The notes under the pieces were generated by a model. The model was not told where the DNA came from. It ran no database searches and saw only the letters and a list, made by a program, of their open reading frames with translations. From NCBI GenBank assembly GCA_039105265.1, contig JAPFFF010000006.1, forward strand, positions 5,828,001 through 5,892,000: a stretch of DNA of 64,000 nt. The letters run 5' to 3'. This DNA is from Tritrichomonas musculus. Lineage: Eukaryota; Parabasalia; Tritrichomonadida; Tritrichomonadidae. Position 1 is the stretch's first letter. Each line of letters begins with the position of its first letter. This document shows, in pieces, positions 17,519-53,889 of this stretch. The translations under genes were made by a program, and so were the position numbers.

Positions 17519-17520
<2 letters not shown>

Positions 17521-17575
<55 letters not shown>

Positions 17576-20336: not shown

Positions 20337-20340
20337 ATAT

Positions 20341-20364
20341 TTGAATGGTTTATATATTCTTGAC
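20341..20364 (+). promoter_or_regulatory. Conserved upstream motif, first of two per unit
   Basis: A 24-bp motif with the core GGTTTATATATTCTTGAC lies about 115 bp before the first hairpin module. A second copy occurs at 21009-21032 in the same unit, and both recur in every unit, including partial ones (about 48589 and 51730). Both are followed by TTGAAATTT and, about 30 bases on, ATGGTGA or ATGATGA, while the sequence further down differs. A motif shared by different downstream sequences suggests a promoter for small RNA genes; a box C-like reading of RTGATGA is also possible. This is inference. Confidence 0.35.
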
Positions 20365-20479
20365 ATTTGAAATTCGAGGAAATTTTCATAATGGTGAATA
20401 GAAAAAGGAGATAACAAAAAACACTTCATTTTTTTAAAGTGAAGAAGAAGAGAAAGATTTAAAATCATCAAGAAAAAAT

Positions 20480-20903
20480 GTGTCTTGTATAAGGCACTGA
20501 CAGCTACTCTGATTTGATAAACAAAAAAAACTTTCATCACAGCACACTGACCAAAAATCGAGTGAACGAAGAATGGTCAATCTCCATTGTTAGGAGATAA
20601 AATTGTGTCTTGTGTAAGGCACTTTACAGCTACTCTGATTTATTTTAAAAAATAACAATTCAAACGGTGACATAGACCAAAAATCGAGTGAATGAAGAAT
20701 GGTCAATCTCCATTGTTAGGAGATAAAATGGTGTCTTGTGTAAGCCACTTTACAGCTATTTTATTTAATTTTTAATTTAATTTTCTCCAATAAATAGATC
20801 AAAAACTTTTGATTCAAAAGAATAAGATAGAAAGAAAACGAATAATCAATTAAATCTTCTATTTATTGGAGTACTTGTGTCTTGTATAAGGCACATTTAC
20901 AGC
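20480..20903 (+). ncRNA. Cluster of four hairpin modules, candidate structured small RNAs (unit 1)
   Basis: The module GTGTCTTGTRTAAGGCAC, followed within a few bases by TTACAGC or an equivalent ending, occurs four times (20480-20504, 20605-20630, 20731-20756, 20877-20903). Its two halves pair (GTG.CTT with AAG.CAC). Modules 2 and 3 are each preceded by two hairpins: GACCA/TGGTC (20549-20553 with 20574-20578; again from 20675) and ATCTCC/GGAGAT (20580-20585 with 20593-20598). Module 4 follows a 14-bp inverted repeat, CTCCAATAAATAGA (20785-20798) with its complement at 20858-20871. No ORF runs through. The hairpin plus ACA-type ending vaguely recalls H/ACA RNAs, but I cannot assign a family. 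Confidence 0.45.
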
Positions 20904-21008
20904 CATTAATTTTTAACTAAAAATTAATTTTTACTTTTCATATTCATTGATATATTATTTATAACGCATTTTATTGAATAGACATTTTTCTTATTTTGGT
21001 TGAAATGC

Positions 21009-21032
21009 TTGAATGGTTTATATATTCTTGAC
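21009..21032 (+). promoter_or_regulatory. Conserved upstream motif, second copy in unit 1
   Basis: Same 24-bp motif as at 20341, here between the hairpin modules and the 38-codon ORF, about 125 bp before that ORF's ATG. It could drive a short transcript covering the ORF. Confidence 0.3.
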
Positions 21033-21157
21033 TATTGAAATTTAATTAAAATTTTAAAATGGTGATAATAAAAAAGAGAAAATAATAATGTAAATAAAAA
21101 AGCTTGGAATTGATATTTGTCTCATTTTATTCAATCGATTAAAATTGATTTTTTAAC

Positions 21158-21274
21158 ATGGAAAATTATTTTGAGCTGGAGCAGCCCGGTTTGCTTGATA
21201 TAATTTCATTACCTGAGATTATTCATACGACGATCACTTTGCTCATACCTGTAATTGTAGTGAAATTTGCATGA
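21158..21274 (+). CDS. Small ORF of 38 codons, hypothetical (unit 1)
   Basis: ATG at 21158, stop TGA at 21272-21274. The peptide begins MENYFELEQPG and has a hydrophobic second half (ITLLIPVIVVKFA) that could span or sit on a membrane. The stretch is richer in G+C than its surroundings (GAGCTGGAGCAGCCCGG), which is unusual here. A TCATT initiator-like sequence lies at 21122-21126. It is preserved in all six units, but they are too similar for that to show selection. It could also be part of a non-coding RNA. No family is recognised. Confidence 0.3.
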   Translation: MENYFELEQPGLLDIISLPEIIHTTITLLIPVIVVKFA

Positions 21275-21390
21275 TTATCCTAACCTTATTCTAAGATAAG
21301 TAAGTTATTTGGTTCGATTTCTAGAAGTTTTTTAGGAAAAAAAAATAAATCACTTGTAAAGCAATTTTCAAAGAGTAAAATAAATAGAAT

Positions 21391-24033
21391 TTATTTAAAG
21401 AAAAGAAAGCATATAAATAAAAAGAAAACTAAAAGTAAAAAATGAATTCTTCTTCTACCACTAAAAAGATGTATTTTTAACTTAATATAAAAAGGAGCCT
21501 GAATCTGTTTTAATGAAATGCAATTCGAAAATGCATCTTGATCAATTTTAATTGCATTTGATTGGATAATAACAAATTGTAAAGAAATGCAGTCATTGAA
21601 TGCATTTTTACCAATTCTTTCTACAGATGTAGGAATTGTCACTCCAATTAATGATTTGCACTGATTGAATGAGTAATCTTCAATTGATTTGACTGAATGA
21701 GGAATTGAAATACTTGATAATAATTTGCATTCGTTGAAAACAAATGAATCGAATGAAGTTATTGAGCATGGTTCTTCAAAGAGTATTTCTTCTAATGATA
21801 CACAGCCAGAAAATGCAAGACTGTCAATTGAAGTTACAGAAGAAGGAATTGTGATACTTCTCAGTGACCAACAATCAGCAAAAGCTGAATATCCAATTGA
21901 AATTACTGGTAAAGGAATTGATATTTCTGTTAACGATGAACAGTAACTGAAAGAAAAATGTCCAATATATGTAATTGATGAAAGGTTTGTATATTCAAAA
22001 TCTTTATTTGAAGATTCTTCTGTTTGAAATAAATTTGGTTTCAGTGATGAGCATCCAATTATAGCAACAGATGAATGAATTGATTTATCTGTTAAAGACG
22101 AGCAATAACCAAAAGAATTATATCCTAAAAATGTAACAGAAGAGAGCTTTGAACAATTATCAAATATTTCATTACTAATTGAAGTCACAGATGAAGGAAT
22201 TGATATTTTGAGCAATGATGAGCAAAAAGCAAAAGCTTCGCATCCAATTGATGTAACAGATGAAGGAATTTGTATTTCAGCTAATGATGAGCAACTAAGG
22301 AAAACATGATCACCGATTGAAGTAACTGAAGATGGAATTGATATTTTTGTTAATGAAAAGCAATTCCAGAAAGAACAAGAATTGATTTTAGTAACAGAAG
22401 ATGGAATTTGAATGGATCTTAATGATTTACAAAAAGAAAAAGTATTTGCTTCAATTTCTTTTATTGGACATTGAAGTTCTATTTTTATCAATGATTTGCA
22501 ATAAGAAAAAGCTCCTTCCTTGATTGAAGTCACAGATGATGGTATCTTTATTTTAGTAATTGATAAGCATCTAGAAAATGCACGATCACCAATCGATGTA
22601 ACTGAAGGTGGAATTTTAATACGATGCAAAGATGAACATTCATAAAAAGCATAATCATCAATATAAGTAACAGATGGAGGAAGAATCACTTGTGTTAAAG
22701 ATGAGCATTGAAAAAAGGAACTTTTTGGAATGTATGTAAAAAAATGTGGAATTGAAATTTGTCGCAGTTTCTTCAATCCATAAAAATTGAGTTTTTTATC
22801 TTGACCATAATTATGAGACAATAAAAAGTAAACAATTGGCAAATTGTTATGATTGGCAGCTAGAATAATTGAACAATTATAAAATGTTGTTTGAAAATAA
22901 TTTCCTTCTGAATCATAATGAACATAAGACTCATTGATTTTAAAAGATTTGTCTTTCATAATTAACGTGACCAATTCATAATAATTATATTTACTGCAAA
23001 ATTCCAAGAAAATTGGATCCGAATTGAATTCTTCAGGGAAAAAGTTGTAGTTATAATAATGAAAACAATGATCATAAAAGTTTTCTTTTAAGCATTGTTG
23101 ATCTATAAAACTCTCATCTAAATAATTGTCGTGAATGTAATTTGCGATTTCATTGTGATGACATTTAATTGCTTCATAAAAGCATTCTAAATAAGTTTCA
23201 TCTTTTGGTTTGACTTCATTTTCTTCGAGAAGTCGAATTATTTCTGGATTTCTACCATGAATTGCATAAAGCCACAATGAAGGCTCCAATTCAATGTGAT
23301 TTAATCGTAAGTATTGAAAAATTTGAATGGATCCAAAAAAAGATGCGTATTCAATTAATGTAGTTTTCCTCTTTCGCAGAAATGGATTGGTTTCAAATAT
23401 TGATTGATGTATTATGCTTGATAATGAAATATTGTTTTGATTAATATAGATTACGAATTCTTGAATTTTATCGTTTCGAATCAAATGGCAAATGTGTGTT
23501 TCATTTTCTCCAATTCTACATTTTTCTAGCCAGGTATCAAAATCGTAAGAAAATTTTTTTGAAAATTTAGATTCAATTCTTTTTATCTTTTTTTTGCTAA
23601 TGCTTTTTTTTAATATGGGATAAAAATAATATATGTATTTCATCGAATTATATAATTTTTTTCTATATAAATATGTTAAAACGGATTTATCAATTGTAAT
23701 GATGTTTTTTTCAAAAAGAAAACGAAGAAAAATTAAATTATTACCAAATGTATTCAACAAATCTAAGCTTGAAAAAAGAATTTTGATGTCCTCTCGTAGA
23801 TGTGAAAAAATAAGATCAATTATTTTGAGAAAATCGATTGTCCTATAATGATTTTTTAAAATTTTAGATATACAATTAAGAAATAACGTCAATTCTTCCC
23901 GATTTTCATGAAAATTTTGTAAAAAACAAATCTTTTTTGATTGTTGGTTTTCGATTTCATTATTACATTCAAGAAACTCTGATAGAATGCAATAATCACT
24001 TTTCTTATGTTTGATATATTCTCTGATTTGCAT
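21391..24033 (-). CDS. BspA-like LRR protein with ankyrin-type N-terminal half and C-terminal anchor (copy 1)
   Basis: An 880-residue protein. The N-terminal region (about 1-170) is Lys/Phe-rich and unassigned. About 175-400 resembles degenerate ankyrin/DUF3447 repeats (LIEYASFFGSIQIFQYL and similar). About 417-860 is a run of roughly 17 Treponema/BspA-type LRRs (LRR_5) with the motif SSVTSIG..AF..CSSL..I.IP. An Arg-rich segment and a hydrophobic stretch (RRRIHFLLLVFFLFICFLFF) end the protein, giving a probable tail anchor; there is no signal peptide. Trichomonad BspA-like proteins are often surface or secreted adhesion candidates, but this architecture would instead put the LRRs in the cytosol unless translocated (inference). 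A TCATA initiator lies at 24052-24056, 19-23 bases before the ATG. The downstream convergent side holds the 38-codon ORF and the hairpin modules. Confidence 0.9.
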   Translation of the reverse strand: MQIREYIKHKKSDYCILSEFLECNNEIENQQSKKICFLQNFHENREELTLFLNCISKILKNHYRTIDFLKIIDLIFSHLREDIKILFSSLDLLNTFGNNLIFLRFLFEKNIITIDKSVLTYLYRKKLYNSMKYIYYFYPILKKSISKKKIKRIESKFSKKFSYDFDTWLEKCRIGENETHICHLIRNDKIQEFVIYINQNNISLSSIIHQSIFETNPFLRKRKTTLIEYASFFGSIQIFQYLRLNHIELEPSLWLYAIHGRNPEIIRLLEENEVKPKDETYLECFYEAIKCHHNEIANYIHDNYLDESFIDQQCLKENFYDHCFHYYNYNFFPEEFNSDPIFLEFCSKYNYYELVTLIMKDKSFKINESYVHYDSEGNYFQTTFYNCSIILAANHNNLPIVYFLLSHNYGQDKKLNFYGLKKLRQISIPHFFTYIPKSSFFQCSSLTQVILPPSVTYIDDYAFYECSSLHRIKIPPSVTSIGDRAFSRCLSITKIKIPSSVTSIKEGAFSYCKSLIKIELQCPIKEIEANTFSFCKSLRSIQIPSSVTKINSCSFWNCFSLTKISIPSSVTSIGDHVFLSCSSLAEIQIPSSVTSIGCEAFAFCSSLLKISIPSSVTSISNEIFDNCSKLSSVTFLGYNSFGYCSSLTDKSIHSSVAIIGCSSLKPNLFQTEESSNKDFEYTNLSSITYIGHFSFSYCSSLTEISIPLPVISIGYSAFADCWSLRSITIPSSVTSIDSLAFSGCVSLEEILFEEPCSITSFDSFVFNECKLLSSISIPHSVKSIEDYSFNQCKSLIGVTIPTSVERIGKNAFNDCISLQFVIIQSNAIKIDQDAFSNCISLKQIQAPFYIKLKIHLFSGRRRIHFLLLVFFLFICFLFFK

Positions 24034-24051
24034 ATCTTTATATACATAATC

Positions 24052-24056
24052 TATGA
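24052..24056 (-). promoter_or_regulatory. Initiator TCATA of the LRR gene
   Basis: Minus-strand TCATA fits TCA-Y-(T/A), 19-23 bases before the ATG at 24033. It is conserved in front of all six gene copies, including the diverged sixth. Confidence 0.5.
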
Positions 24057-24150
24057 CAAACGAACTATGTCAATTTTGATTAGTAAAATTCAAAAAGTAT
24101 TCAAAAAAAAAAAAATTTCAATTTAGATAGAGTAATAGATAAATAAAATT

Positions 24151-24342
24151 ATGAAATTAAATTTAATTACGATAGAATCCTCTACTTTGGTGATGGCATT
24201 ATTACCAAAGAAATTGGATAATTTGACTTTTTCAGAATTGGTAGCCAAATATGTATTGAAAAAAAATGAATCATTAAATAAAAAGATTTCAGAAAGTTTT
24301 AATCATCTAAAAAATTTTGATATGCTTATATCAGAAGCGTAA
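24151..24342 (+). CDS. Small hypothetical protein of 63 residues (unit 1)
   Basis: ATG at 24151, divergent from the LRR gene with 117 bp between the start codons. The peptide begins MKLNLITIESSTLVMALLPKK and then becomes a Lys/Glu/Asn-rich predicted helix (LNKKISESFNHLKNF). There is no signal peptide or membrane segment and no family is recognised. It shares a short divergent promoter region with the LRR gene, including an A-run and AGATAGAGTAATAGATAA. The sequence is unchanged in the diverged unit 6, while DNA around it there has changed, a weak hint of constraint. Confidence 0.45.
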   Translation: MKLNLITIESSTLVMALLPKKLDNLTFSELVAKYVLKKNESLNKKISESFNHLKNFDMLISEA

Positions 24343-24723
24343 AATTTATTTTTATTTGGTTTCGTTATTGTATTTTGTAAATATTTATTTTATTTCCTAA
24401 TATTAATTATGCATCATCAATTTGCATTTTATGAAAGATATCTACAACATTGACATTATAAAATCTATTTTTAAATCAGTTTTACTTTCTCATCGTAAGG
24501 TAAAGAACAAAAAAGCTAAAAATAGCAAAAACTTTTTCTGAAGAAGAATTCTTTGAATTTATTTTCAAAGAGTTTTGTTGTATTTTGAAAAGTTTACATG
24601 TTTTACATTAGTACTTTTAATATGTAAGTTTGTCATTGTGTATTTTTTAAGTGAAATAATTTTTGATTTATTTGAGTTAAAAGTTTAGTATTACTTTATC
24701 ACGCTTCATGAAAATCATGGAAA

Positions 24724-24796
24724 TGGGTTGTAGTTCAATTGGTTAGAATACGACACAGTCATTAGTCGAGATGTTGGTTCAATTCCAACCAACCCC
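24724..24796 (+). tRNA. tRNA-like gene, Asp-like with abnormal anticodon loop (copy 1)
   Basis: A cloverleaf can be drawn: acceptor GGGTTG with CAACCC (the outermost pair is T:C), D stem GTTC/GAAT, T arm GTTGG-TTCAATT-CCAAC. The box A region (TAGTTCAATTGG) matches its consensus. Box B (GGTTCAATTCC) has one change. A T6 run at 24802-24807 would end Pol III transcription. The anticodon stem CGAC/GTCG encloses ten bases (ACAGTCATTA) rather than the expected number, and the position before GTC is A, not T. The D arm resembles bacterial or plastid tRNA-Asp. It may be a tRNA-derived RNA or a decayed tRNA that still has its promoter; the Asp(GTC) reading is tentative. Confidence 0.55.
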
Positions 24797-25188
24797 TATT
24801 ATTTTTTCTTTTTTCTTTTTTCTTTTTTTCCTTTTCATTTTCTTTTTTTGTTAAACATTCAAGATTAGAGTTTTTTCTTTATTCTGATTAGGATTTATTA
24901 ATGAATATTTTATCAATGATAAAATAAGATAAAAATCAATGTTTTATTCATATTTAGAAAAATATTTATCTATCCTTATTCATATCAATTCAAATTTTTT
25001 ACACTTTTCTTAGAAATTTTTCAATAAAATTTGATTTAAAATATTTGAATGGTTTATATATTCTTGACAATTGAAATTTGTAAAAATTTTAATAATGATG
25101 AAAAGAAAAAGGAGATAACAAAAAACACTTCATTTTCTTAAAGTGAAGAAGAAGAGAAAGAGAAAGATTTAAAATCATCAAGAAAAAT

Positions 25189-25611
25189 GTGTCTTGTATA
25201 AGGCACTAACAGCTTCACTGATTTAATAAACAAAATAACTTTCATCACAGCGACACAGACCAAAAATCGAGTGAACGAAGAATGGTCAATCTCCATTGTT
25301 AGGAGATAAAATTGTGTCTTGTGTAAGGCACTTTACAGCTACTCTGATTTATTTTAAAAAATAACAATTCAAACGGTGACACTGACCAAAAATCGAGTGA
25401 ATGAAGAATGGTCAATCTCCATTGTTAGGAGATAAAATGGTGTCTTGTGTAAGCCACTTTACAGCTATTTTATTTAATTTTTAATTTAATTTTCTCCAAT
25501 AAATAGATCAAAACTTTTGATTCAAAAGAATAAGATAGAAAGGAAACGAAAAATCAATTAAATCTTCTATTTATTGGAGTACTTGTGTCTTGTATAAGGC
25601 ACATTTACAGC
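25189..25611 (+). ncRNA. Hairpin-module cluster (unit 2)
   Basis: Four modules as in unit 1. The first module reads CACTAACAGC in place of CACTGACAGC, and the AGAGAA stretch before it is 6 bp longer. The 14-bp inverted repeat before module 4 is intact. Confidence 0.45.
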
Positions 25612-25865
25612 CATTAATTTTTAACTAAAAATTAATTTTTACTTTTCATATTCATTGATATATTATTTATAACGCATTTTATTGAATAGACATTTTTCTT
25701 ATTTTGGTTGAAATGCTTGAATGGTTTATATATTCTTGACTATTGAAATTTAATTAAAATTTTAAAATGGTGATAATAAAAAAGAGAAAATAATAATGTA
25801 AATAAAAAAGCTTGGAATTGATATTTGTCTCATTTTATTCAATCGATTAAAATTGATTTTTTAAC

Positions 25866-25982
25866 ATGGAAAATTATTTTGAGCTGGAGCAGCCCGGTTT
25901 GCTTGATATAATTTCATTACCTGAGATTATTCATACGACGATCACTTTGCTCATACCTGTAATTGTAGTGAAATTTGCATGA
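25866..25982 (+). CDS. Small 38-codon ORF (unit 2)
   Basis: Identical in translation to the unit 1 copy. The offset from unit 1 is 4708 bp here because one A is added in a downstream A-run, between this ORF and the LRR gene end. Confidence 0.3.
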   Translation: MENYFELEQPGLLDIISLPEIIHTTITLLIPVIVVKFA

Positions 25983-26099
25983 TTATCCTAACCTTATTCT
26001 AAGATAAGTAAGTTATTTGGTTCGATTTCTAGAAGTTTTTTAGGAAAAAAAAAATAAATCACTTGTAAAGCAATTTTCAAAGAGTAAAATAAATAGAAT

Positions 26100-28742
26100 T
26101 TATTTAAAGAAAAGAAAGCATATAAATAAAAAGAAAACTAAAAGTAAAAAATGAATTCTTCTTCTACCACTAAAAAGATGTATTTTTAACTTAATATAAA
26201 AAGGAGCCTGAATCTGTTTTAATGAAATGCAATTCGAAAATGCATCTTGATCAATTTTAATTGCATTTGATTGGATAATAACAAATTGTAAAGAAATGCA
26301 GTCATTGAATGCATTTTTACCAATTCTTTCTACAGATGTAGGAATTGTCACTCCAATTAATGATTTGCACTGATTGAATGAGTAATCTTCAATTGATTTG
26401 ACTGAATGAGGAATTGAAATACTTGATAATAATTTGCATTCGTTGAAAACAAATGAATCGAATGAAGTTATTGAGCATGGTTCTTCAAAGAGTATTTCTT
26501 CTAATGATACACAGCCAGAAAATGCAAGACTGTCAATTGAAGTTACAGAAGAAGGAATTGTGATACTTCTCAGTGACCAACAATCAGCAAAAGCTGAATA
26601 TCCAATTGAAATTACTGGTAAAGGAATTGATATTTCTGTTAACGATGAACAGTAACTGAAAGAAAAATGTCCAATATATGTAATTGATGAAAGGTTTGTA
26701 TATTCAAAATCTTTATTTGAAGATTCTTCTGTTTGAAATAAATTTGGTTTCAGTGATGAGCATCCAATTATAGCAACAGATGAATGAATTGATTTATCTG
26801 TTAAAGACGAGCAATAACCAAAAGAATTATATCCTAAAAATGTAACAGAAGAGAGCTTTGAACAATTATCAAATATTTCATTACTAATTGAAGTCACAGA
26901 TGAAGGAATTGATATTTTGAGCAATGATGAGCAAAAAGCAAAAGCTTCGCATCCAATTGATGTAACAGATGAAGGAATTTGTATTTCAGCTAATGATGAG
27001 CAACTAAGGAAAACATGATCACCGATTGAAGTAACTGAAGATGGAATTGATATTTTTGTTAATGAAAAGCAATTCCAGAAAGAACAAGAATTGATTTTAG
27101 TAACAGAAGATGGAATTTGAATGGATCTTAATGATTTACAAAAAGAAAAAGTATTTGCTTCAATTTCTTTTATTGGACATTGAAGTTCTATTTTTATCAA
27201 TGATTTGCAATAAGAAAAAGCTCCTTCCTTGATTGAAGTCACAGATGATGGTATCTTTATTTTAGTAATTGATAAGCATCTAGAAAATGCACGATCACCA
27301 ATCGATGTAACTGAAGGTGGAATTTTAATACGATGCAAAGATGAACATTCATAAAAAGCATAATCATCAATATAAGTAACAGATGGAGGAAGAATCACTT
27401 GTGTTAAAGATGAGCATTGAAAAAAGGAACTTTTTGGAATGTATGTAAAAAAATGTGGAATTGAAATTTGTCGCAGTTTCTTCAATCCATAAAAATTGAG
27501 TTTTTTATCTTGACCATAATTATGAGACAATAAAAAGTAAACAATTGGCAAATTGTTATGATTGGCAGCTAGAATAATTGAACAATTATAAAATGTTGTT
27601 TGAAAATAATTTCCTTCTGAATCATAATGAACATAAGACTCATTGATTTTAAAAGATTTGTCTTTCATAATTAACGTGACCAATTCATAATAATTATATT
27701 TACTGCAAAATTCCAAGAAAATTGGATCCGAATTGAATTCTTCAGGGAAAAAGTTGTAGTTATAATAATGAAAACAATGATCATAAAAGTTTTCTTTTAA
27801 GCATTGTTGATCTATAAAACTCTCATCTAAATAATTGTCGTGAATGTAATTTGCGATTTCATTGTGATGACATTTAATTGCTTCATAAAAGCATTCTAAA
27901 TAAGTTTCATCTTTTGGTTTGACTTCATTTTCTTCGAGAAGTCGAATTATTTCTGGATTTCTACCATGAATTGCATAAAGCCACAATGAAGGCTCCAATT
28001 CAATGTGATTTAATCGTAAGTATTGAAAAATTTGAATGGATCCAAAAAAAGATGCGTATTCAATTAATGTAGTTTTCCTCTTTCGCAGAAATGGATTGGT
28101 TTCAAATATTGATTGATGTATTATGCTTGATAATGAAATATTGTTTTGATTAATATAGATTACGAATTCTTGAATTTTATCGTTTCGAATCAAATGGCAA
28201 ATGTGTGTTTCATTTTCTCCAATTCTACATTTTTCTAGCCAGGTATCAAAATCGTAAGAAAATTTTTTTGAAAATTTAGATTCAATTCTTTTTATCTTTT
28301 TTTTGCTAATGCTTTTTTTTAATATGGGATAAAAATAATATATGTATTTCATCGAATTATATAATTTTTTTCTATATAAATATGTTAAAACGGATTTATC
28401 AATTGTAATGATGTTTTTTTCAAAAAGAAAACGAAGAAAAATTAAATTATTACCAAATGTATTCAACAAATCTAAGCTTGAAAAAAGAATTTTGATGTCC
28501 TCTCGTAGATGTGAAAAAATAAGATCAATTATTTTGAGAAAATCGATTGTCCTATAATGATTTTTTAAAATTTTAGATATACAATTAAGAAATAACGTCA
28601 ATTCTTCCCGATTTTCATGAAAATTTTGTAAAAAACAAATCTTTTTTGATTGTTGGTTTTCGATTTCATTATTACATTCAAGAAACTCTGATAGAATGCA
28701 ATAATCACTTTTCTTATGTTTGATATATTCTCTGATTTGCAT
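26100..28742 (-). CDS. BspA-like LRR/ankyrin protein, copy 2
   Basis: The 880-residue product is identical to copy 1. Start, TCATA initiator (28761-28765) and the divergent small ORF are all retained. Confidence 0.9.
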   Translation of the reverse strand: MQIREYIKHKKSDYCILSEFLECNNEIENQQSKKICFLQNFHENREELTLFLNCISKILKNHYRTIDFLKIIDLIFSHLREDIKILFSSLDLLNTFGNNLIFLRFLFEKNIITIDKSVLTYLYRKKLYNSMKYIYYFYPILKKSISKKKIKRIESKFSKKFSYDFDTWLEKCRIGENETHICHLIRNDKIQEFVIYINQNNISLSSIIHQSIFETNPFLRKRKTTLIEYASFFGSIQIFQYLRLNHIELEPSLWLYAIHGRNPEIIRLLEENEVKPKDETYLECFYEAIKCHHNEIANYIHDNYLDESFIDQQCLKENFYDHCFHYYNYNFFPEEFNSDPIFLEFCSKYNYYELVTLIMKDKSFKINESYVHYDSEGNYFQTTFYNCSIILAANHNNLPIVYFLLSHNYGQDKKLNFYGLKKLRQISIPHFFTYIPKSSFFQCSSLTQVILPPSVTYIDDYAFYECSSLHRIKIPPSVTSIGDRAFSRCLSITKIKIPSSVTSIKEGAFSYCKSLIKIELQCPIKEIEANTFSFCKSLRSIQIPSSVTKINSCSFWNCFSLTKISIPSSVTSIGDHVFLSCSSLAEIQIPSSVTSIGCEAFAFCSSLLKISIPSSVTSISNEIFDNCSKLSSVTFLGYNSFGYCSSLTDKSIHSSVAIIGCSSLKPNLFQTEESSNKDFEYTNLSSITYIGHFSFSYCSSLTEISIPLPVISIGYSAFADCWSLRSITIPSSVTSIDSLAFSGCVSLEEILFEEPCSITSFDSFVFNECKLLSSISIPHSVKSIEDYSFNQCKSLIGVTIPTSVERIGKNAFNDCISLQFVIIQSNAIKIDQDAFSNCISLKQIQAPFYIKLKIHLFSGRRRIHFLLLVFFLFICFLFFK

Positions 28743-28859
28743 ATCTTTATATACATAATCTATGACAAACGAACTATGTCAATTTTGATTAGTAAAATTC
28801 AAAAAGTATTCAAAAAAAAAAAAATTTCAATTTAGATAGAGTAATAGATAAATAAAATT

Positions 28860-29051
28860 ATGAAATTAAATTTAATTACGATAGAATCCTCTACTTTGGT
28901 GATGGCATTATTACCAAAGAAATTGGATAATTTGACTTTTTCAGAATTGGTAGCCAAATATGTATTGAAAAAAAATGAATCATTAAATAAAAAGATTTCA
29001 GAAAGTTTTAATCATCTAAAAAATTTTGATATGCTTATATCAGAAGCGTAA
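28860..29051 (+). CDS. Small hypothetical protein of 63 residues (unit 2)
   Basis: Identical to the unit 1 copy, divergent from LRR gene copy 2. Confidence 0.45.
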   Translation: MKLNLITIESSTLVMALLPKKLDNLTFSELVAKYVLKKNESLNKKISESFNHLKNFDMLISEA

Positions 29052-29432
29052 AATTTATTTTTATTTGGTTTCGTTATTGTATTTTGTAAATATTTATTTT
29101 ATTTCCTAATATTAATTATGCATCATCAATTTGCATTTTATGAAAGATATCTACAACATTGACATTATAAAATCTATTTTTAAATCAGTTTTACTTTCTC
29201 ATCGTAAGGTAAAGAACAAAAAAGCTAAAAATAGCAAAAACTTTTTCTGAAGAAGAATTCTTTGAATTTATTTTCAAAGAGTTTTGTTGTATTTTGAAAA
29301 GTTTACATGTTTTACATTAGTACTTTTAATATGTAAGTTTGTCATTGTGTATTTTTTAAGTGAAATAATTTTTGATTTATTTGAGTTAAAAGTTTAGTAT
29401 TACTTTATCACGCTTCATGAAAATCATGGAAA

Positions 29433-40226: not shown

Positions 40227-42869
40227 TTATTTAAAGAAAAGAAAGCATATAAATAAAAAGAAAACTAAAAGTAAAAAATGAATTCTTCTTCTACCACTAA
40301 AAAGATGTATTTTTAACTTAATATAAAAAGGAGCCTGAATCTGTTTTAATGAAATGCAATTCGAAAATGCATCTTGATCAATTTTAATTGCATTTGATTG
40401 GATAATAACAAATTGTAAAGAAATGCAGTCATTGAATGCATTTTTACCAATTCTTTCTACAGATGTAGGAATTGTCACTCCAATTAATGATTTGCACTGA
40501 TTGAATGAGTAATCTTCAATTGATTTGACTGAATGAGGAATTGAAATACTTGATAATAATTTGCATTCGTTGAAAACAAATGAATCGAATGAAGTTATTG
40601 AGCATGGTTCTTCAAAGAGTATTTCTTCTAATGATACACAGCCAGAAAATGCAAGACTGTCAATTGAAGTTACAGAAGAAGGAATTGTGATACTTCTCAG
40701 TGACCAACAATCAGCAAAAGCTGAATATCCAATTGAAATTACTGGTAAAGGAATTGATATTTCTGTTAACGATGAACAGTAACTGAAAGAAAAATGTCCA
40801 ATATATGTAATTGATGAAAGGTTTGTATATTCAAAATCTTTATTTGAAGATTCTTCTGTTTGAAATAAATTTGGTTTCAGTGATGAGCATCCAATTATAG
40901 CAACAGATGAATGAATTGATTTATCTGTTAAAGACGAGCAATAACCAAAAGAATTATATCCTAAAAATGTAACAGAAGAGAGCTTTGAACAATTATCAAA
41001 TATTTCATTACTAATTGAAGTCACAGATGAAGGAATTGATATTTTGAGCAATGATGAGCAAAAAGCAAAAGCTTCGCATCCAATTGATGTAACAGATGAA
41101 GGAATTTGTATTTCAGCTAATGATGAGCAACTAAGGAAAACATGATCACCGATTGAAGTAACTGAAGATGGAATTGATATTTTTGTTAATGAAAAGCAAT
41201 TCCAGAAAGAACAAGAATTGATTTTAGTAACAGAAGATGGAATTTGAATGGATCTTAATGATTTACAAAAAGAAAAAGTATTTGCTTCAATTTCTTTTAT
41301 TGGACATTGAAGTTCTATTTTTATCAATGATTTGCAATAAGAAAAAGCTCCTTCCTTGATTGAAGTCACAGATGATGGTATCTTTATTTTAGTAATTGAT
41401 AAGCATCTAGAAAATGCACGATCACCAATCGATGTAACTGAAGGTGGAATTTTAATACGATGCAAAGATGAACATTCATAAAAAGCATAATCATCAATAT
41501 AAGTAACAGATGGAGGAAGAATCACTTGTGTTAAAGATGAGCATTGAAAAAAGGAACTTTTTGGAATGTATGTAAAAAAATGTGGAATTGAAATTTGTCG
41601 CAGTTTCTTCAATCCATAAAAATTGAGTTTTTTATCTTGACCATAATTATGAGACAATAAAAAGTAAACAATTGGCAAATTGTTATGATTGGCAGCTAGA
41701 ATAATTGAACAATTATAAAATGTTGTTTGAAAATAATTTCCTTCTGAATCATAATGAACATAAGACTCATTGATTTTAAAAGATTTGTCTTTCATAATTA
41801 ACGTGACCAATTCATAATAATTATATTTACTGCAAAATTCCAAGAAAATTGGATCCGAATTGAATTCTTCAGGGAAAAAGTTGTAGTTATAATAATGAAA
41901 ACAATGATCATAAAAGTTTTCTTTTAAGCATTGTTGATCTATAAAACTCTCATCTAAATAATTGTCGTGAATGTAATTTGCGATTTCATTGTGATGACAT
42001 TTAATTGCTTCATAAAAGCATTCTAAATAAGTTTCATCTTTTGGTTTGACTTCATTTTCTTCGAGAAGTCGAATTATTTCTGGATTTCTACCATGAATTG
42101 CATAAAGCCACAATGAAGGCTCCAATTCAATGTGATTTAATCGTAAGTATTGAAAAATTTGAATGGATCCAAAAAAAGATGCGTATTCAATTAATGTAGT
42201 TTTCCTCTTTCGCAGAAATGGATTGGTTTCAAATATTGATTGATGTATTATGCTTGATAATGAAATATTGTTTTGATTAATATAGATTACGAATTCTTGA
42301 ATTTTATCGTTTCGAATCAAATGGCAAATGTGTGTTTCATTTTCTCCAATTCTACATTTTTCTAGCCAGGTATCAAAATCGTAAGAAAATTTTTTTGAAA
42401 ATTTAGATTCAATTCTTTTTATCTTTTTTTTGCTAATGCTTTTTTTTAATATGGGATAAAAATAATATATGTATTTCATCGAATTATATAATTTTTTTCT
42501 ATATAAATATGTTAAAACGGATTTATCAATTGTAATGATGTTTTTTTCAAAAAGAAAACGAAGAAAAATTAAATTATTACCAAATGTATTCAACAAATCT
42601 AAGCTTGAAAAAAGAATTTTGATGTCCTCTCGTAGATGTGAAAAAATAAGATCAATTATTTTGAGAAAATCGATTGTCCTATAATGATTTTTTAAAATTT
42701 TAGATATACAATTAAGAAATAACGTCAATTCTTCCCGATTTTCATGAAAATTTTGTAAAAAACAAATCTTTTTTGATTGTTGGTTTTCGATTTCATTATT
42801 ACATTCAAGAAACTCTGATAGAATGCAATAATCACTTTTCTTATGTTTGATATATTCTCTGATTTGCAT
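40227..42869 (-). CDS. BspA-like LRR/ankyrin protein, copy 5
   Basis: 880 residues, identical to copies 1 to 4. Confidence 0.9.
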   Translation of the reverse strand: MQIREYIKHKKSDYCILSEFLECNNEIENQQSKKICFLQNFHENREELTLFLNCISKILKNHYRTIDFLKIIDLIFSHLREDIKILFSSLDLLNTFGNNLIFLRFLFEKNIITIDKSVLTYLYRKKLYNSMKYIYYFYPILKKSISKKKIKRIESKFSKKFSYDFDTWLEKCRIGENETHICHLIRNDKIQEFVIYINQNNISLSSIIHQSIFETNPFLRKRKTTLIEYASFFGSIQIFQYLRLNHIELEPSLWLYAIHGRNPEIIRLLEENEVKPKDETYLECFYEAIKCHHNEIANYIHDNYLDESFIDQQCLKENFYDHCFHYYNYNFFPEEFNSDPIFLEFCSKYNYYELVTLIMKDKSFKINESYVHYDSEGNYFQTTFYNCSIILAANHNNLPIVYFLLSHNYGQDKKLNFYGLKKLRQISIPHFFTYIPKSSFFQCSSLTQVILPPSVTYIDDYAFYECSSLHRIKIPPSVTSIGDRAFSRCLSITKIKIPSSVTSIKEGAFSYCKSLIKIELQCPIKEIEANTFSFCKSLRSIQIPSSVTKINSCSFWNCFSLTKISIPSSVTSIGDHVFLSCSSLAEIQIPSSVTSIGCEAFAFCSSLLKISIPSSVTSISNEIFDNCSKLSSVTFLGYNSFGYCSSLTDKSIHSSVAIIGCSSLKPNLFQTEESSNKDFEYTNLSSITYIGHFSFSYCSSLTEISIPLPVISIGYSAFADCWSLRSITIPSSVTSIDSLAFSGCVSLEEILFEEPCSITSFDSFVFNECKLLSSISIPHSVKSIEDYSFNQCKSLIGVTIPTSVERIGKNAFNDCISLQFVIIQSNAIKIDQDAFSNCISLKQIQAPFYIKLKIHLFSGRRRIHFLLLVFFLFICFLFFK

Positions 42870-42986
42870 ATCTTTATATACATAATCTATGACAAACGAA
42901 CTATGTCAATTTTGATTAGTAAAATTCAAAAAGTATTCAAAAAAAAAAAAATTTCAATTTAGATAGAGTAATAGATAAATAAAATT

Positions 42987-43178
42987 ATGAAATTAAATTT
43001 AATTACGATAGAATCCTCTACTTTGGTGATGGCATTATTACCAAAGAAATTGGATAATTTGACTTTTTCAGAATTGGTAGCCAAATATGTATTGAAAAAA
43101 AATGAATCATTAAATAAAAAGATTTCAGAAAGTTTTAATCATCTAAAAAATTTTGATATGCTTATATCAGAAGCGTAA
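42987..43178 (+). CDS. Small hypothetical protein of 63 residues (unit 5)
   Basis: Identical to the unit 1 copy. Confidence 0.45.
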   Translation: MKLNLITIESSTLVMALLPKKLDNLTFSELVAKYVLKKNESLNKKISESFNHLKNFDMLISEA

Positions 43179-43559
43179 AATTTATTTTTATTTGGTTTCG
43201 TTATTGTATTTTGTAAATATTTATTTTATTTCCTAATATTAATTATGCATCATCAATTTGCATTTTATGAAAGATATCTACAACATTGACATTATAAAAT
43301 CTATTTTTAAATCAGTTTTACTTTCTCATCGTAAGGTAAAGAACAAAAAAGCTAAAAATAGCAAAAACTTTTTCTGAAGAAGAATTCTTTGAATTTATTT
43401 TCAAAGAGTTTTGTTGTATTTTGAAAAGTTTACATGTTTTACATTAGTACTTTTAATATGTAAGTTTGTCATTGTGTATTTTTTAAGTGAAATAATTTTT
43501 GATTTATTTGAGTTAAAAGTTTAGTATTACTTTATCACGCTTCATGAAAATCATGGAAA

Positions 43560-43632
43560 TGGGTTGTAGTTCAATTGGTTAGAATACGACACAGTCATTA
43601 GTCGAGATGTTGGTTCAATTCCAACCAACCCC
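43560..43632 (+). tRNA. tRNA-like gene (copy 5)
   Basis: Identical to copy 1. Confidence 0.55.
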
Positions 43633-44024
43633 TATTATTTTTTCTTTTTTCTTTTTTCTTTTTTTCCTTTTCATTTTCTTTTTTTGTTAAACATTCAAGA
43701 TTAGAGTTTTTTCTTTATTCTGATTAGGATTTATTAATGAATATTTTATCAATGATAAAATAAGATAAAAATCAATGTTTTATTCATATTTAGAAAAATA
43801 TTTATCTATCCTTATTCATATCAATTCAAATTTTTTACACTTTTCTTAGAAATTTTTCAATAAAATTTGATTTAAAATATTTGAATGGTTTATATATTCT
43901 TGACAATTGAAATTTGTAAAAATTTTAATAATGATGAAAAGAAAAAGGAGATAACAAAAAACACTTCATTTTCTTAAAGTGAAGAAGAAGAGAAAGAGAA
44001 AGATTTAAAATCATCAAGAAAAAT

Positions 44025-44447
44025 GTGTCTTGTATAAGGCACTAACAGCTTCACTGATTTAATAAACAAAATAACTTTCATCACAGCGACACAGACCAAA
44101 AATCGAGTGAACGAAGAATGGTCAATCTCCATTGTTAGGAGATAAAATTGTGTCTTGTGTAAGGCACTTTACAGCTACTCTGATTTATTTTAAAAAATAA
44201 CAATTCAAACGGTGACACTGACCAAAAATCGAGTGAATGAAGAATGGTCAATCTCCATTGTTAGGAGATAAAATGGTGTCTTGTGTAAGCCACTTTACAG
44301 CTATTTTATTTAATTTTTAATTTAATTTTCTCCAATAAATAGATCAAAACTTTTGATTCAAAAGAATAAGATAGAAAGGAAACGAAAAATCAATTAAATC
44401 TTCTATTTATTGGAGTACTTGTGTCTTGTATAAGGCACATTTACAGC
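44025..44447 (+). ncRNA. Hairpin-module cluster (unit 6)
   Basis: Four modules, identical by eye to units 2 to 5; the divergence of unit 6 begins further right. Confidence 0.45.
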
Positions 44448-44701
44448 CATTAATTTTTAACTAAAAATTAATTTTTACTTTTCATATTCATTGATATATT
44501 ATTTATAACGCATTTTATTGAATAGACATTTTTCTTATTTTGGTTGAAATGCTTGAATGGTTTATATATTCTTGACTATTGAAATTTAATTAAAATTTTA
44601 AAATGGTGATAATAAAAAAGAGAAAATAATAATGTAAATAAAAAAGCTTGGAATTGATATTTGTCTCATTTTATTCAATCGATTAAAATTGATTTTTTAA
44701 C

Positions 44702-44818
44702 ATGGAAAATTATTTTGAGCTGGAGCAGCCCGGTTTGCTTGATATAATTTCATTACCTGAGATTATTCATACGACGATCACTTTGCTCATACCTGTAATT
44801 GTAGTGAAATTTGCATGA
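44702..44818 (+). CDS. Small 38-codon ORF (unit 6)
   Basis: Same translation as in unit 1; lies in the homogenised half of unit 6. Confidence 0.3.
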   Translation: MENYFELEQPGLLDIISLPEIIHTTITLLIPVIVVKFA

Positions 44819-44935
44819 TTATCCTAACCTTATTCTAAGATAAGTAAGTTATTTGGTTCGATTTCTAGAAGTTTTTTAGGAAAAAAAAAATAAATCACTT
44901 GTAAAGCAATTTTCAAAGAGTAAAATAAATAGAAT

Positions 44936-47578
44936 TTATTTAAAGAAAAGAAAGCATATAAATAAAAAGAAAACTAAAAGTAAAAAATGAATTCTTCTTC
45001 TACCACTAAAAAGATGTATTTTTAACTTAATATAAAAAGGAGCCTGAATCTGTTTTAATGAAATGCAATTCGAAAATGCATCTTGATCAATTTTAATTGC
45101 ATTTGATTGGATAATAACAAATTGTAAAGAAATGCAGTCATTGAATGCATTTTTACCAATTCTTTCTACAGATGTAGGAATTGTCACTCCAATTAATGAT
45201 TTGCACTGATTGAATGAGTAATCTTCAATTGATTTGACTGAATGAGGAATTGAAATACTTGATAATAATTTGCATTCGTTGAAAACAAATGAATCGAATG
45301 AAGTTATTGAGCATGGTTCTTCAAAGAGTATTTCTTCTAATGATACACAGCCAGAAAATGCAAGACTGTCAATTGAAGTTACAGAAGAAGGAATTGTGAT
45401 ACTTCTCAGTGACCAACAATCAGCAAAAGCTGAATATCCAATTGAAATTACTGGTAAAGGAATTGATATTTCTGTTAACGATGAACAGTAACTGAAAGAA
45501 AAATGTCCAATATATGTAATTGATGAAAGGTTTGTATATTCAAAATCTTTATTTGAAGATTCTTCTGTTTGAAATAAATTTGGTTTCAGTGATGAGCATC
45601 CAATTATAGCAACAGATGAATGAATTGATTTATCTGTTAAAGACGAGCAATAACCAAAAGAATTATATCCTAAAAATGTAACAGAAGAGAGCTTTGAACA
45701 ATTATCAAATATTTCATTACTAATTGAAGTCACAGATGAAGGAATTGATATTTTGAGCAATGATGAGCAAAAAGCAAAAGCTTCGCATCCAATTGATGTA
45801 ACAGATGAAGGAATTTGTATTTCAGCTAATGATGAGCAACTAAGGAAAACATGATCACCGATTGAAGTAACTGAAGATGGAATTGATATTTTTGTTAATG
45901 AAAAGCAATTCCAGAAAGAACAAGAATTGATTTTAGTAACAGAAGATGGAATTTGAATGGATCTTAATGATTTACAAAAAGAAAAAGTATTTGCTTCAAT
46001 TTCTTTTATTGGACATTGAAGTTCTATTTCTATCAATGATTTGCAATAAGAAAAAGCTCCTTCCTTGATTGAAGTCACAGATGATGGTATCTTTATTTTA
46101 GTAATTGATAAGCATCTAGAAAATGCACGATCACCAATCGATGTAACTGAAGGTGGAATTTTAATACGATGCAAAGATGAACATTCATAAAAAGCATAAT
46201 CATCAATATAAGTAACAGATGGAGGAAGAATCACTTGTGTTAAAGATGAGCATTGAAAAAAGGAACTTTTTGGAATGTATGTAAAAAAATGTGGAATTGA
46301 AATTTGTCGCAGTTTCTTCAATCCATAAAAATTGAGTTTTTTATCTTGACCATAATTATGAGACAATAAAAAGTAAACAATTGGCAAATTGTTATGATTG
46401 GCAGCTAGAATAATTGAACAATTATAAAATGTTGTTTGAAAATAATTTCCTTCTGAATCATAATGAACATAAGACTCATTTATTTTAAAAGTTTTGTCTT
46501 TCATAATTAACGTGACCAATTCATAATAATTATATTTACTGCAAAATTCCAAGAAAATTGGATCCGAATTGAATTCATCAGGGAAAAAGTTATAGTTATA
46601 ATAATGAAAACAATGATCATAAAAGTTTTCTTTTAAGCATTGTTGATCTATAAAACTCTCATCTAAATAATTGTCGTGAATGTAATTTGCGATTTCATTG
46701 TGATGACATTTAATTGCTTCATAAAAGCATTCTAAATAAGTTTCATCTTTTGGTTTGACTTCATTTTCTTCGAGAAGTCGAATTATTTCTGGATTTCTAC
46801 CATGAATTGCATAAAGCCACAATGAAGGCTCCAATTCAATGTGATTTAATCGTAAGTATTGAAAAATTTGAATGGATCCAAAAAAAGCTGCGTATTCAAT
46901 TAATGTAGTTTTCCTCTTTCGCAGAAATGGATTGGTTTCAAATATTGATTGATGTATTATACTTGATAATGAAATATTGTTTTGATTTACATAGATGACG
47001 AATTCTTGAATTTTATCGTTTCGAATCAAATGGCAAATGTGTGTTTCATTTTCTCCAATTCTACATTTTTCTAGCCAGGTATCAAAATCGTAAGAAAATT
47101 TTTTTGAAAATTTAGATTCAATTCTTTTTATCTTTTTTTTGCTAATGCCTTTTTTTAATATGGGATAAAAATAATATATGTATTTCATCGAATTATATAA
47201 TTTTTTTCTATATAAATATGTTAAAACGGATTTATCAATTGTAATGATGTTTTTTTCAAAAAGAAAACGAAGAAAAATTAAATTATTGCCAAATGTATTT
47301 AACAAATCTAAGCTTGAAAAAAGAATTTTGATGTCATCTCGTAGATGTGAAAAAATAAGATCAATTTTTTTGAGAAAATCGATTGTCCTATAATGATTTT
47401 TTAAAATTTTAGATATACAATTAAGAAATAACGTTAATTCTTCTCGATTTTCATGAAAATTTTGTAAAAAACAAATCTTTTTTGATTGTTGGTTTTCGAT
47501 TTCATTATTACATTCAAGAAACTCTGATAGAATGCAATAATCACTTTTCTTATGTTTGATATATTCTCTGATTTGCAT
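44936..47578 (-). CDS. BspA-like LRR/ankyrin protein, copy 6 (diverged N-terminal half)
   Basis: 880 residues with eight substitutions against copies 1-5: I to K in FLKKID, E to D in LRDDIK, S to G in KKGISKK, I to V in VIYVNQ, S to A in EYAAFFG, E to D in FFPDEF, S to T in KDKTFK and K to E in SLIEIEL. All lie upstream of about residue 517. The remaining roughly 360 residues, most of the LRR run and the anchor, are identical. Most changes are conservative and the frame is intact, so the gene looks functional. It is the only visibly distinct variant in the array. Confidence 0.9.
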   Translation of the reverse strand: MQIREYIKHKKSDYCILSEFLECNNEIENQQSKKICFLQNFHENREELTLFLNCISKILKNHYRTIDFLKKIDLIFSHLRDDIKILFSSLDLLNTFGNNLIFLRFLFEKNIITIDKSVLTYLYRKKLYNSMKYIYYFYPILKKGISKKKIKRIESKFSKKFSYDFDTWLEKCRIGENETHICHLIRNDKIQEFVIYVNQNNISLSSIIHQSIFETNPFLRKRKTTLIEYAAFFGSIQIFQYLRLNHIELEPSLWLYAIHGRNPEIIRLLEENEVKPKDETYLECFYEAIKCHHNEIANYIHDNYLDESFIDQQCLKENFYDHCFHYYNYNFFPDEFNSDPIFLEFCSKYNYYELVTLIMKDKTFKINESYVHYDSEGNYFQTTFYNCSIILAANHNNLPIVYFLLSHNYGQDKKLNFYGLKKLRQISIPHFFTYIPKSSFFQCSSLTQVILPPSVTYIDDYAFYECSSLHRIKIPPSVTSIGDRAFSRCLSITKIKIPSSVTSIKEGAFSYCKSLIEIELQCPIKEIEANTFSFCKSLRSIQIPSSVTKINSCSFWNCFSLTKISIPSSVTSIGDHVFLSCSSLAEIQIPSSVTSIGCEAFAFCSSLLKISIPSSVTSISNEIFDNCSKLSSVTFLGYNSFGYCSSLTDKSIHSSVAIIGCSSLKPNLFQTEESSNKDFEYTNLSSITYIGHFSFSYCSSLTEISIPLPVISIGYSAFADCWSLRSITIPSSVTSIDSLAFSGCVSLEEILFEEPCSITSFDSFVFNECKLLSSISIPHSVKSIEDYSFNQCKSLIGVTIPTSVERIGKNAFNDCISLQFVIIQSNAIKIDQDAFSNCISLKQIQAPFYIKLKIHLFSGRRRIHFLLLVFFLFICFLFFK

Positions 47579-47693
47579 ATCTTTATATACATAATCTATG
47601 ACAAACGAACTATGTCAATTTTGATTTGTAAAATTCAAAAAGTATTCAAAAAAAAAATTTTCAATTTAGATAGAGTAATAGATAAATAAAATT

Positions 47694-47885
47694 ATGAAAT
47701 TAAATTTAATTACGATAGAATCCTCTACTTTGGTGATGGCATTATTACCAAAGAAATTGGATAATTTGACTTTTTCAGAATTGGTAGCCAAATATGTATT
47801 GAAAAAAAATGAATCATTAAATAAAAAGATTTCAGAAAGTTTTAATCATCTAAAAAATTTTGATATGCTTATATCAGAAGCGTAA
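47694..47885 (+). CDS. Small hypothetical protein of 63 residues (unit 6)
   Basis: Nucleotide sequence appears unchanged although the promoter A-run just upstream is two bases shorter and flanking DNA has substitutions. Confidence 0.45.
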   Translation: MKLNLITIESSTLVMALLPKKLDNLTFSELVAKYVLKKNESLNKKISESFNHLKNFDMLISEA

Positions 47886-48265
47886 AATTTATTTTTATTT
47901 GGTTTCGTTATTGTATTTTGTAAATATTTATTTTATTTCCTAATATTAATTATGCATCATCAATTTGCATTTTATGAAAGATATCTACAACATTGACATT
48001 ATAAAATCTATTTTTAAATCAGTTTTACTTTCTCATCGTAAGGTAAAGAGCAAAAAAGCTAAAAAAAGCAAAAACTTTTTCTGAAGAAGAATTCTTTGAA
48101 TTTATTTTCAAAGAGTTTTGTTGTATTTTGAAAAGTTTACATGTTTTACATTAGTACTTTTAATATGTAAGTTTGTCATCATGTATTTTTTAAGTGAAAT
48201 ATTTTTTGATTTATTTGAGTTAAAAGTTTAGTATTACTTTATCACGCTTCATAAAAATAATGAAA

Positions 48266-48338
48266 TGGGTTGTAGTTCAATTGGTTAGAATACGACACAG
48301 TCATTAGTCGAGATGTTGGTTCAATTCCAACCAACCCC
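48266..48338 (+). tRNA. tRNA-like gene (copy 6)
   Basis: The tRNA-like part is identical to copy 1, but the bases just upstream (ATAAAAATAATGAAA) and the T/C-rich tract downstream carry changes. Confidence 0.55.
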
Positions 48339-48735
48339 TATTATTTTTTCTTTTTTCTTTTTTCTTTATTTCCTTTTCATTTTCTTTTTCGTTAAACTTT
48401 CAAGATTAGAGTTTTTTCTTTATTCTGATTAGGATTTATTAATGAATATTTTATCAATGATAAAATAAGATAAAAATCAATGTTTTATTTATATTTAGAA
48501 AAATATTTATCTATCCTTATTCATATCAATTCAAATTTTTTACACTTTTCTTAGAAATTTTTCAATAAAATTTGATATAAAATATTTGAATGGTTTATAT
48601 ATTCTTGACATTTGAAATTTGTAAAAATTTTAATAATGATGAAAAGAAAAAGGAGATAACAAAAAACACTTCATTTTCTTAAAGTGAAGAAGAAGAGAAA
48701 GAGAAAGAGAAAGATTTAAAATCATCAAGAAAAAT

Positions 48736-49032
48736 GTGTCTTGCATAAGGCACTGACAGCTTCACTGATTTAATAAACAAAATAACTTTCATCACAGCGA
48801 CACAGACCAAAAATCGAGTGAATGGCAAATGGTCAATCTCCATTGTTAGGAGATAAAATGGTGTCTTGTGTAAGCCACTTTACAGCTATTTTATTTAATT
48901 TTTAATTTAATTTTCTCCAATAAATAGATCAAAACTTTTGATTCAAAAGAACATGGTATAAAGGAAATGAAAAATCAATTAAATCTTCTATTTATTGGAA
49001 TACTTGTGTCTTGTATAAGGCACATTTACAGC
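48736..49032 (+). ncRNA. Shortened hairpin-module cluster with three modules
   Basis: Modules begin at 48736, about 48869 and about 49006. One of the two GACCA-type module pairs has been deleted, joining the first CACAGACCA to the second half. The first module reads TTGCATAAGG. The 14-bp inverted repeat before the last module is kept with one mismatch (TTATTGGAA). The next bases, to 49340, do not match the unit: the LRR gene and both small ORFs are missing and about 250 bp of unrelated A+T-rich DNA lies there. Confidence 0.4.
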
Positions 49033-49340
49033 TATTAATTTTTAATTAAAAATTAATTTTTAATCAATTTTTACTTTTCATATTCATTGATAAATTTTTT
49101 TTGTTTTATACTTTATTGAAATGTCAATGTTCCAGGATTTTTTAAAATTAAATTGTTTTTAATATTTCAACAATAACTCATATCTTTTATGAAGGATTTG
49201 GATTTGAAATCCAATAGATTAAACCTTAATGTGATTTTATATTCATTATATGCAGAAAGTCTAGCATCATGCATCATTTTGGATATATTTGAATATAATA
49301 ATTAAGAATTATGTATTTATGCTCATGTAAAAAATGGAAA

Positions 49341-49413
49341 TGGGTTGTAGTTCAATTGGTTAGAATACGACACAGTCATTAGTCGAGATGTTGGTTCAAT
49401 TCCAACCAACCCC
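49341..49413 (+). tRNA. tRNA-like gene (copy 7, outside a full unit)
   Basis: Identical to the other copies although its upstream flank is unrelated. The match to the array resumes about 9 bp before it and continues to 49616, where inserted DNA begins. Confidence 0.55.
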
Positions 49414-49616
49414 TATTATTTTTTCTTTTTTCTTTTTTCTTTATTTCCTTTTCATTTTCTTTTTCGTTAAACTTTCAAGATTAGAGTTTTTCTTTATTCT
49501 GATTAGGATTTGTTAATGAATACTTTATCAATGATAAAATAAGATAAAAATTAATGTTTTATTTATATTTAGAAAAATATTTATCTATCCTTATTCATAT
49601 CAATTCAAATTTTTTA

Positions 49617-53880: not shown

Positions 53881-53889
53881 ATAATTATT

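Follow-up and report, generated by a model that had tools for sequence, protein, structure and literature searches.

A tandem array in Tritrichomonas musculus links a leucine-rich repeat gene to candidate structured RNAs that recur beside genes of Ro60-like predicted fold

What is being amplified when one tandem repeat holds a large protein gene alongside candidate small RNAs and a tRNA-like gene? This question is raised by a 64,000-nucleotide stretch of the Tritrichomonas musculus genome (assembly GCA_039105265.1, contig JAPFFF010000006.1, positions 5,828,001 to 5,892,000 of the forward strand; hereafter the window), which carries six full repeat units at 20342-48586. Positions are given in window coordinates, obtained by subtracting 5828000 from the position on the contig (C6), and genome-wide scans covered 193.4 Mb of T. 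musculus sequence in 746 contigs. Each unit appears to combine an intact ankyrin/BspA-type leucine-rich repeat (LRR) gene with two components on the opposite strand, a tRNA-like gene and, separate from it, a small-RNA unit. The latter would consist, in order, of an upstream element, four modules with a common 3' hairpin-ACAGC terminus, and an AT-rich end. The array as such is of an ordinary kind for a repeat-rich genome, 42.67% of which is masked as repeats according to PMC11978803; what stands out is the RNA cassette together with its Ro60-like neighbour at other loci.

In a representative interior unit, a motif scan places the upstream element TTGAATGGTTTATATA at 25045-25060 on the plus strand, and this element is conserved with the corresponding clusters on contigs C13 and C34. 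Its other copies in the window start at 20341, 29754, 34463, 39172, 43881, 48586 and 51730, likewise on the plus strand. Downstream on the same strand lie module 1 (25189-25213; terminal hairpin and ACAGC), modules 2 and 3 (25246-25341 and 25372-25467; both of a three-hairpin type defined by alignment A1) and module 4 (25490-25612; a long stem plus the terminal hairpin). The hairpin modules proposed in an earlier, sequence-only reading of this DNA are therefore present, with four per unit in 6/6 units, all on the plus strand and all ending in the common 3' hairpin followed by ACAGC. Predicted folds were well beyond those of shuffled sequences for module 2 (z -3.59), module 4 (z -4.21) and a module from C34 (z -4.07). 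A second copy of TTGAATGGTTTATATA within the unit (25717-25732, plus strand) precedes a region B at about 25840-25990; a 361-base query matched, past its first ~110 bases, in this array alone.

Scanning the genome with the pattern CTTGTRTAAGGCAC-N2-4-RCAGC yielded 68 matches, compared with 0 for the reversed control: 19 in the C6 array, 39 on C13, 7 on C34, plus single matches on C5, C32 and C280. Module 3, which reads AAGCCAC, is missed by this pattern. When a 26-base pattern was used, allowing up to 3 mismatches with the gap fixed at 3 bases, 46 matches were obtained, all inside the three large clusters. The modules are restricted to five independent places in the genome; C280 (L114) is probably a duplicate contig, because it is identical to C32 (L113) over at least 901 bases. 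Between the window and C13, the block from the upstream element through the third module showed 82-93% identity in nine of eleven 40-base steps (70 and 72% in the other two), while identity outside the block was 50-62% in three upstream steps and 38-50% in five steps past the third ACAGC. By eye, a similar AT-rich stretch follows module 4 of the window and the last modules of C13 and C34. On these sequence comparisons, the RNA cluster is a discrete conserved block that is not specific to the window array and has also been amplified with a Ro60-like gene elsewhere. Viral contigs contained no match to a 22-base module pattern, and its single isolated match in a bacterial metagenome-assembled genome was taken as chance.

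In the C13 and C34 arrays, the RNA cassette is co-amplified with genes for a DUF2828 protein. The predicted structure of this protein, for which one member was modelled, exhibits a Ro60 fold across its whole length. Residues D306, S308, S310 and T377 of a DxSxS...T motif are invariant in 30 aligned sequences, with DxSxS located in the von Willebrand-type half; we take these residues to be the metal site of a von Willebrand factor A domain. A search of solved structures with a 324-aa part of the Ro60-like protein returned no close sequence match, the best (E 0.29) being a glutamyl-tRNA ligase. DUF2828 gave 5,936 hits in a protein search, and the Ro60-like predicted fold of the one member modelled may hold for many others of this family (P0121 and relatives). 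Among the literature matches listed for DUF2828, none drew a link to Ro60, and a link of trichomonads with Ro60, Y RNA or TROVE may already be in print.

Our preferred explanation, held with somewhat less than even confidence, is that the RNA unit of the array represents a recurrent cassette, that the modules are small structured RNAs of a Ro60-like ribonucleoprotein (RNP), and that copy number translates into dose. The RNA unit is regarded as a recurrent cassette because it is also amplified with the DUF2828 genes of Ro60-like predicted fold. Conservation and architecture make an RNA product from the modules likely. A single transcript would be cut into modules at the common hairpin-ACAGC, the modules would act as RNAs of a Ro60-like RNP in the manner of Y RNAs, and the copy number of the array would set their dose; we infer transcription, processing, binding and dosage alike. 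A wider proposal, speculative and rather unlikely to hold in full, is that trichomonads possess an unrecognised Ro60-like RNP in which Ro60-fold DUF2828 proteins bind a new hairpin-ACAGC family of small RNAs. These RNAs would be made as clusters and amplified in homogenised tandem arrays, in one case with the protein gene itself and in the window with an LRR membrane protein that faces the cytosol and with a tRNA-like gene, the last perhaps part of the same RNP pathway.

Several observations weigh against the Ro60-like explanation. The protein match is one of predicted fold only, with 11-14% identity in the Ro60 rows, and Pfam TROVE was not detected in the C13/C34 DUF2828 protein by a scan up to E 1, which gave DUF7788, DUF2828 and weak others. 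The association is also incomplete: by pattern, 5 of 19 DUF2828 genes are without a cluster, C5, C32 and C280 yielded no DUF2828 gene, and the sole DUF2828 gene of C6 sits 1.5 Mb from the window array. Four of the seven folded modules are unremarkable (window module 1, z -0.53; window module 3, -1.55; C5, -1.80; C32, -0.99). Covariation is absent: 0/24 pairs of alignment A1 and 0/7 pairs of alignment A3 were altered at both positions when compared with the commonest pair, and shuffles of A3 perform equally well. Pair 4 of the terminal hairpin reads U-G in 7, C-G in 6 and U-A in 2 of 17 rows and is unpaired in 2, but shuffled alignments reach the same score. Modules at L016, L022, L112, L113 and L114 have no Rfam match up to E 0.5. 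Finally, the similarity between paralogous clusters may stem from recent common origin and not from constraint.

For the window modules, the Rfam scan was extended up to E 5 and likewise gave no match; the Rfam models include Y RNA and YrlA. Weak hits below gathering were judged to be chance: mir-434 and snoR1 within the LRR open reading frame (ORF), a plastid element at 51897-51959, and two microRNA models in L034. The sequence-only reading had spoken of RNA polymerase III-type RNA units. This description is borne out in part: it fits the tRNA-like gene, while for the modules a run of at least four T within 40 nt of the module end occurred in 12 of 21 matches and was lacking in 9 of 21 (including one that falls by chance within a DUF2828 ORF).

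The protein gene of the window array is an 880-aa ORF on the minus strand (21391-24033, with further copies at 26100-28742, 30809-33451, 35518-38160, 40227-42869 and 44936-47578), unbroken in 6/6 units. Its product matches Pfam LRR_5 across the C-terminal half (6e-95) and, under the Pfam cut-off, ankyrin repeats (Ank_2) in the N-terminal half. Comparison of the interior copy with the last one showed differences at 16 codons, of which 8 alter the residue (dN 0.0038, dS 0.0169); the resulting dN/dS of ~0.23, although derived from a small sample, points to constraint. A same-length relative from the protein search is 98% identical and, at the 8 differing residues, agrees with the last copy at four and with the interior copy at four. 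The gene had been described as surface-type, which the hydropathy profile does not bear out. The N-terminus is not hydrophobic (best 19-residue mean -0.41 for windows starting at residues 1-25), the six top hydropathy windows all fall within residues 856-880, and the C-terminus consists of RRR, a membrane-like stretch and a final K. Because RRR precedes this stretch, the positive-inside rule for membrane topology, combined with hydropathy, suggests a tail anchor with the repeats facing the cytosol. Such a tail was not seen in the eight relatives whose ends were inspected. In viral contigs, three pattern matches to the LRR protein were obtained and none was confirmed as a relative.

The tRNA-like gene (24724-24797, plus strand; ARAGORN and Rfam tRNA) is present in every unit, as the sequence-only reading had stated, with seven copies in place of the six implied; the others start at 29433, 34142, 38851, 43560, 48266 and 49341, also on the plus strand. 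Each of the seven reaches 45.3 bits with the Rfam tRNA model (gathering 29). Outside the array, 14 hits were found, of which three (L100-L102) matched in a T-rich tail only and were dropped; the remaining 11 relatives, most with unrelated flanks, comprise 8 distinct sequences, three being identical to others. Canonical tRNA features are missing: the array copy and the 8 distinct relatives all have an anticodon loop of 10 bases on a 4-bp stem (8 bases with an A-A closing mismatch in ARAGORN) where a tRNA has seven, all have a T-C mismatch at position 1-72, and no anticodon can be assigned. In the alignment of these nine sequences, 99.4% of cells are paired over the 19 drawn stem pairs, none of which shows a double-sided change, and the array copy folded alone by energy does not prefer the cloverleaf (z -0.95). 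Identity as tRNA-Asp, considered for a GTC in the loop, was rejected, since six canonical tRNA-Asp pattern matches occur elsewhere and the 10-base loop is fixed in the relatives. From its sequence, we read the gene as belonging to a conserved family of tRNA-like genes whose anticodon cannot be assigned.

These parts are assembled in a uniform array. Self-comparison of the window at shifts of 4000-5999 bases gave a dominant shift of 4709 bases, matching at 56% of positions (33% for the runner-up). The six full units (20342-25045, 25046-29754, 29755-34463, 34464-39172, 39173-43881 and 43882-48586) measure 4704, 4709, 4709, 4709, 4709 and 4705 bases, so that the claim of six units of exactly 4709 bp stands as to the number of full units in the assembled sequence, and as to length for four of them. 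The interior units, four in number, are indeed identical, at all 4709 positions; periodicity is perfect over 21337-46029 (24,693 bases), and the longest exact run at this shift is 19,984 bases. Unit 1 deviates from the interior only within its first ~507 bases and by one A in a run of that base; the differences of unit 6 are confined to unit position 2149 and beyond. BLAST of an interior unit against the window reveals a degraded partial unit at 48587-49616, in which the RNA cluster (48587-49062; 94% and 91% identity) is followed by a block at 49273-49616 (92%) with the seventh tRNA-like gene. The array had been thought to end here, but homology resumes past ~2.07 kb of other DNA at 51683-51915 (98% identity) with a unit end, an upstream element and module 1. 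Inverted ends AAAACCCCTAACATT bound a stretch at about 50128-51686 within this interruption, and after the last module-1 remnant, a 27-base piece (51938-51964; 85%, E 0.024) is similar to the 3' portion of a tRNA-Thr gene. Two small ORFs had also been assigned to each unit. The largest outside the 880-aa gene in the translated stretch 24001-26100 encodes 63 aa (24151-24342, plus strand) and has no Pfam match, and no test that was run supports its status as a gene. In sum, the assembly does contain a homogenised trichomonad tandem array in which an LRR gene is joined by candidate structured RNAs and by a tRNA-like gene.

We picture a tandem amplification in the nuclear genome that would be either very young or homogenised by unequal exchange, the latter being the agent we infer. 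The earlier proposal of ongoing exchange or very recent amplification agrees with edge variation around a uniform interior, but stacking of unresolved identical units by the assembler fits as well. Such an assembly effect, in which the assembler stacked as few as two true units or collapsed a greater number than six, is unlikely in our estimate and compatible with any other explanation. It gains plausibility from the contrast between about 24.7 kb of exact periodicity and the reads behind the EAF2021 assembly (PacBio HiFi, mean 8.9 kb; Oxford Nanopore, >10 kb, listed under scaffolding; PMC11978803). Because reads averaging 8.9 kb cannot count identical 4.7-kb units over such a distance, the number six is not established. 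Nevertheless, the left- and right-edge units carry different variants and therefore demand more than one unit and a unit-to-unit junction, and a further degraded part is present whose longer pieces diverge by 6-9%. A different reading, possible though on the improbable side, regards the array as ordinary amplification of one BspA-like family member, with the RNA cluster and tRNA-like gene hitchhiking and with selection acting on the protein or not at all. BspA-type LRR genes are abundant in this genome (at least 154 LRR_5 matches here; 2,217 BspA-like proteins in PMC11978803), and the intact ORFs and their low dN/dS would suit selection on the protein. A second array, on C27 (598373-610770; L033-L036), repeats a tRNA-His gene at 4109-bp spacing with three of four 3071-base stretches identical; the stretch checked holds no ORF of at least 80 aa, and neither the RNA cluster nor the upstream element was found in its 3071 bases. 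Hitchhiking alone, however, leaves the recurrence of the RNA block in two arrays unexplained, and the block is conserved with sharp borders between arrays otherwise unrelated in content.

Two further interpretations concern the modules themselves, and we consider both quite improbable. If they formed an unusual cluster of box H/ACA-type small nucleolar RNAs (snoRNAs) guiding pseudouridylation, the RNA would end three bases past ACA. The ACA does lie close to the module end, modules 2 and 3 each show, by eye, an ANANNA-like AGATAA separating their final two hairpins, and reduced H/ACA snoRNAs with target-free second stems have been predicted in Giardia and T. vaginalis (PMC3228867). In the consensus fold, however, the last hairpin has 7-8 bp, a 4-base loop and no internal loop that could serve as a guide pocket, so that the hairpin-hinge-hairpin-ACA plan with its pocket is not reproduced at this terminal hairpin; a hinge box was not seen by eye in module 4, and no module matched an Rfam snoRNA. 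Alternatively, the cluster and its upstream element might be a repeat or transposon-like DNA family whose hairpins act at the DNA level without an RNA product. With up to 1 mismatch, TTGAATGGTTTATATA occurs 598 times genome-wide (32 for the reversed control), 22 of 30 exact-match loci were sorted by eye into three dispersed repeat families, and C34 carries one element copy without modules behind it. Against this stand the confinement of the modules to five independent places and their differing 5' parts with one shared 3' end, which a simple mobile repeat would not predict. In 29 of the 30 loci, no ORF of at least 100 aa begins with ATG within 400 bases past the element (the exception has 141 aa), and Rfam gave nothing up to E 0.05 at the 20 loci scanned. 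A role of TTGAATGGTTTATATA as a general small nuclear RNA promoter was dismissed, as it was not seen by eye upstream of six U2 genes and two below-cut-off U6-like matches. On balance, the Ro60-like cassette remains the explanation we prefer.

Elsewhere in the window, an intact glycoside hydrolase family 3 gene (15331-17481; 716 aa) looks like a recent lateral acquisition; G+C is 41% in 16001-18000 and ~26% in the whole window. Two protein kinases with Sel1-repeat tails occupy 2206-4755 and 5690-9634. To the right of the array lies a Maverick/Polinton-like element (53398-63861) that encodes a type B DNA polymerase (PF03175); its additional long open frames have no Pfam match above cut-off.

Ro60 and Y RNAs are ancient, patchily distributed and poorly understood. 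A protist with a co-amplified Ro60-fold gene and candidate small RNAs would, if our explanation is correct, offer a natural system for RNA function and dosage, and it would supply a functional hypothesis for the DUF2828 domain family, whose relatives number in the thousands. The array also represents a clean example of edge divergence flanking an identical interior, useful for studies of homogenisation in trichomonad genomes.

Among known systems, 5S rRNA and ubiquitin genes are linked in Tritrichomonas, a linkage that our literature search did not return; none of the matches listed for 5S-linked arrays named T. vaginalis. Entamoeba tRNA gene arrays are long and head-to-tail with tRNA genes in each uniform unit, some 5S RNA, and short repeats in some species, and the mechanisms considered for them include unequal sister chromatid exchange (PMC2652664). 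The window array resembles them in its uniform head-to-tail units with a tRNA-like gene, but its unit is dominated by the 880-aa ORF and the RNA modules, and its tRNA-like gene is non-canonical. With the trichomonad BspA-like surface LRR family the 880-aa protein shares the LRR_5 repeats of its C-terminal half, whereas its N-terminal half is weakly ankyrin-like, its N-terminus is not hydrophobic and its membrane-like stretch lies at the very end. The modules recall box H/ACA snoRNAs in placing an ACA close to the end, behind a terminal hairpin, and depart from them in the missing guide pocket and family match. Compared with Ro60/Rsr and its Y RNAs (YrlA in bacteria), the protein here is detected as DUF2828/DUF7788 and not as TROVE, its RNA binding is putative, and the candidate RNAs match no Rfam model, occur as clusters and, in the window array, lack a protein partner. 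The likeness lies in a candidate structured-RNA cluster, with modules of about 100 nt, that adjoins a gene of Ro60-like predicted fold with an invariant DxSxS.

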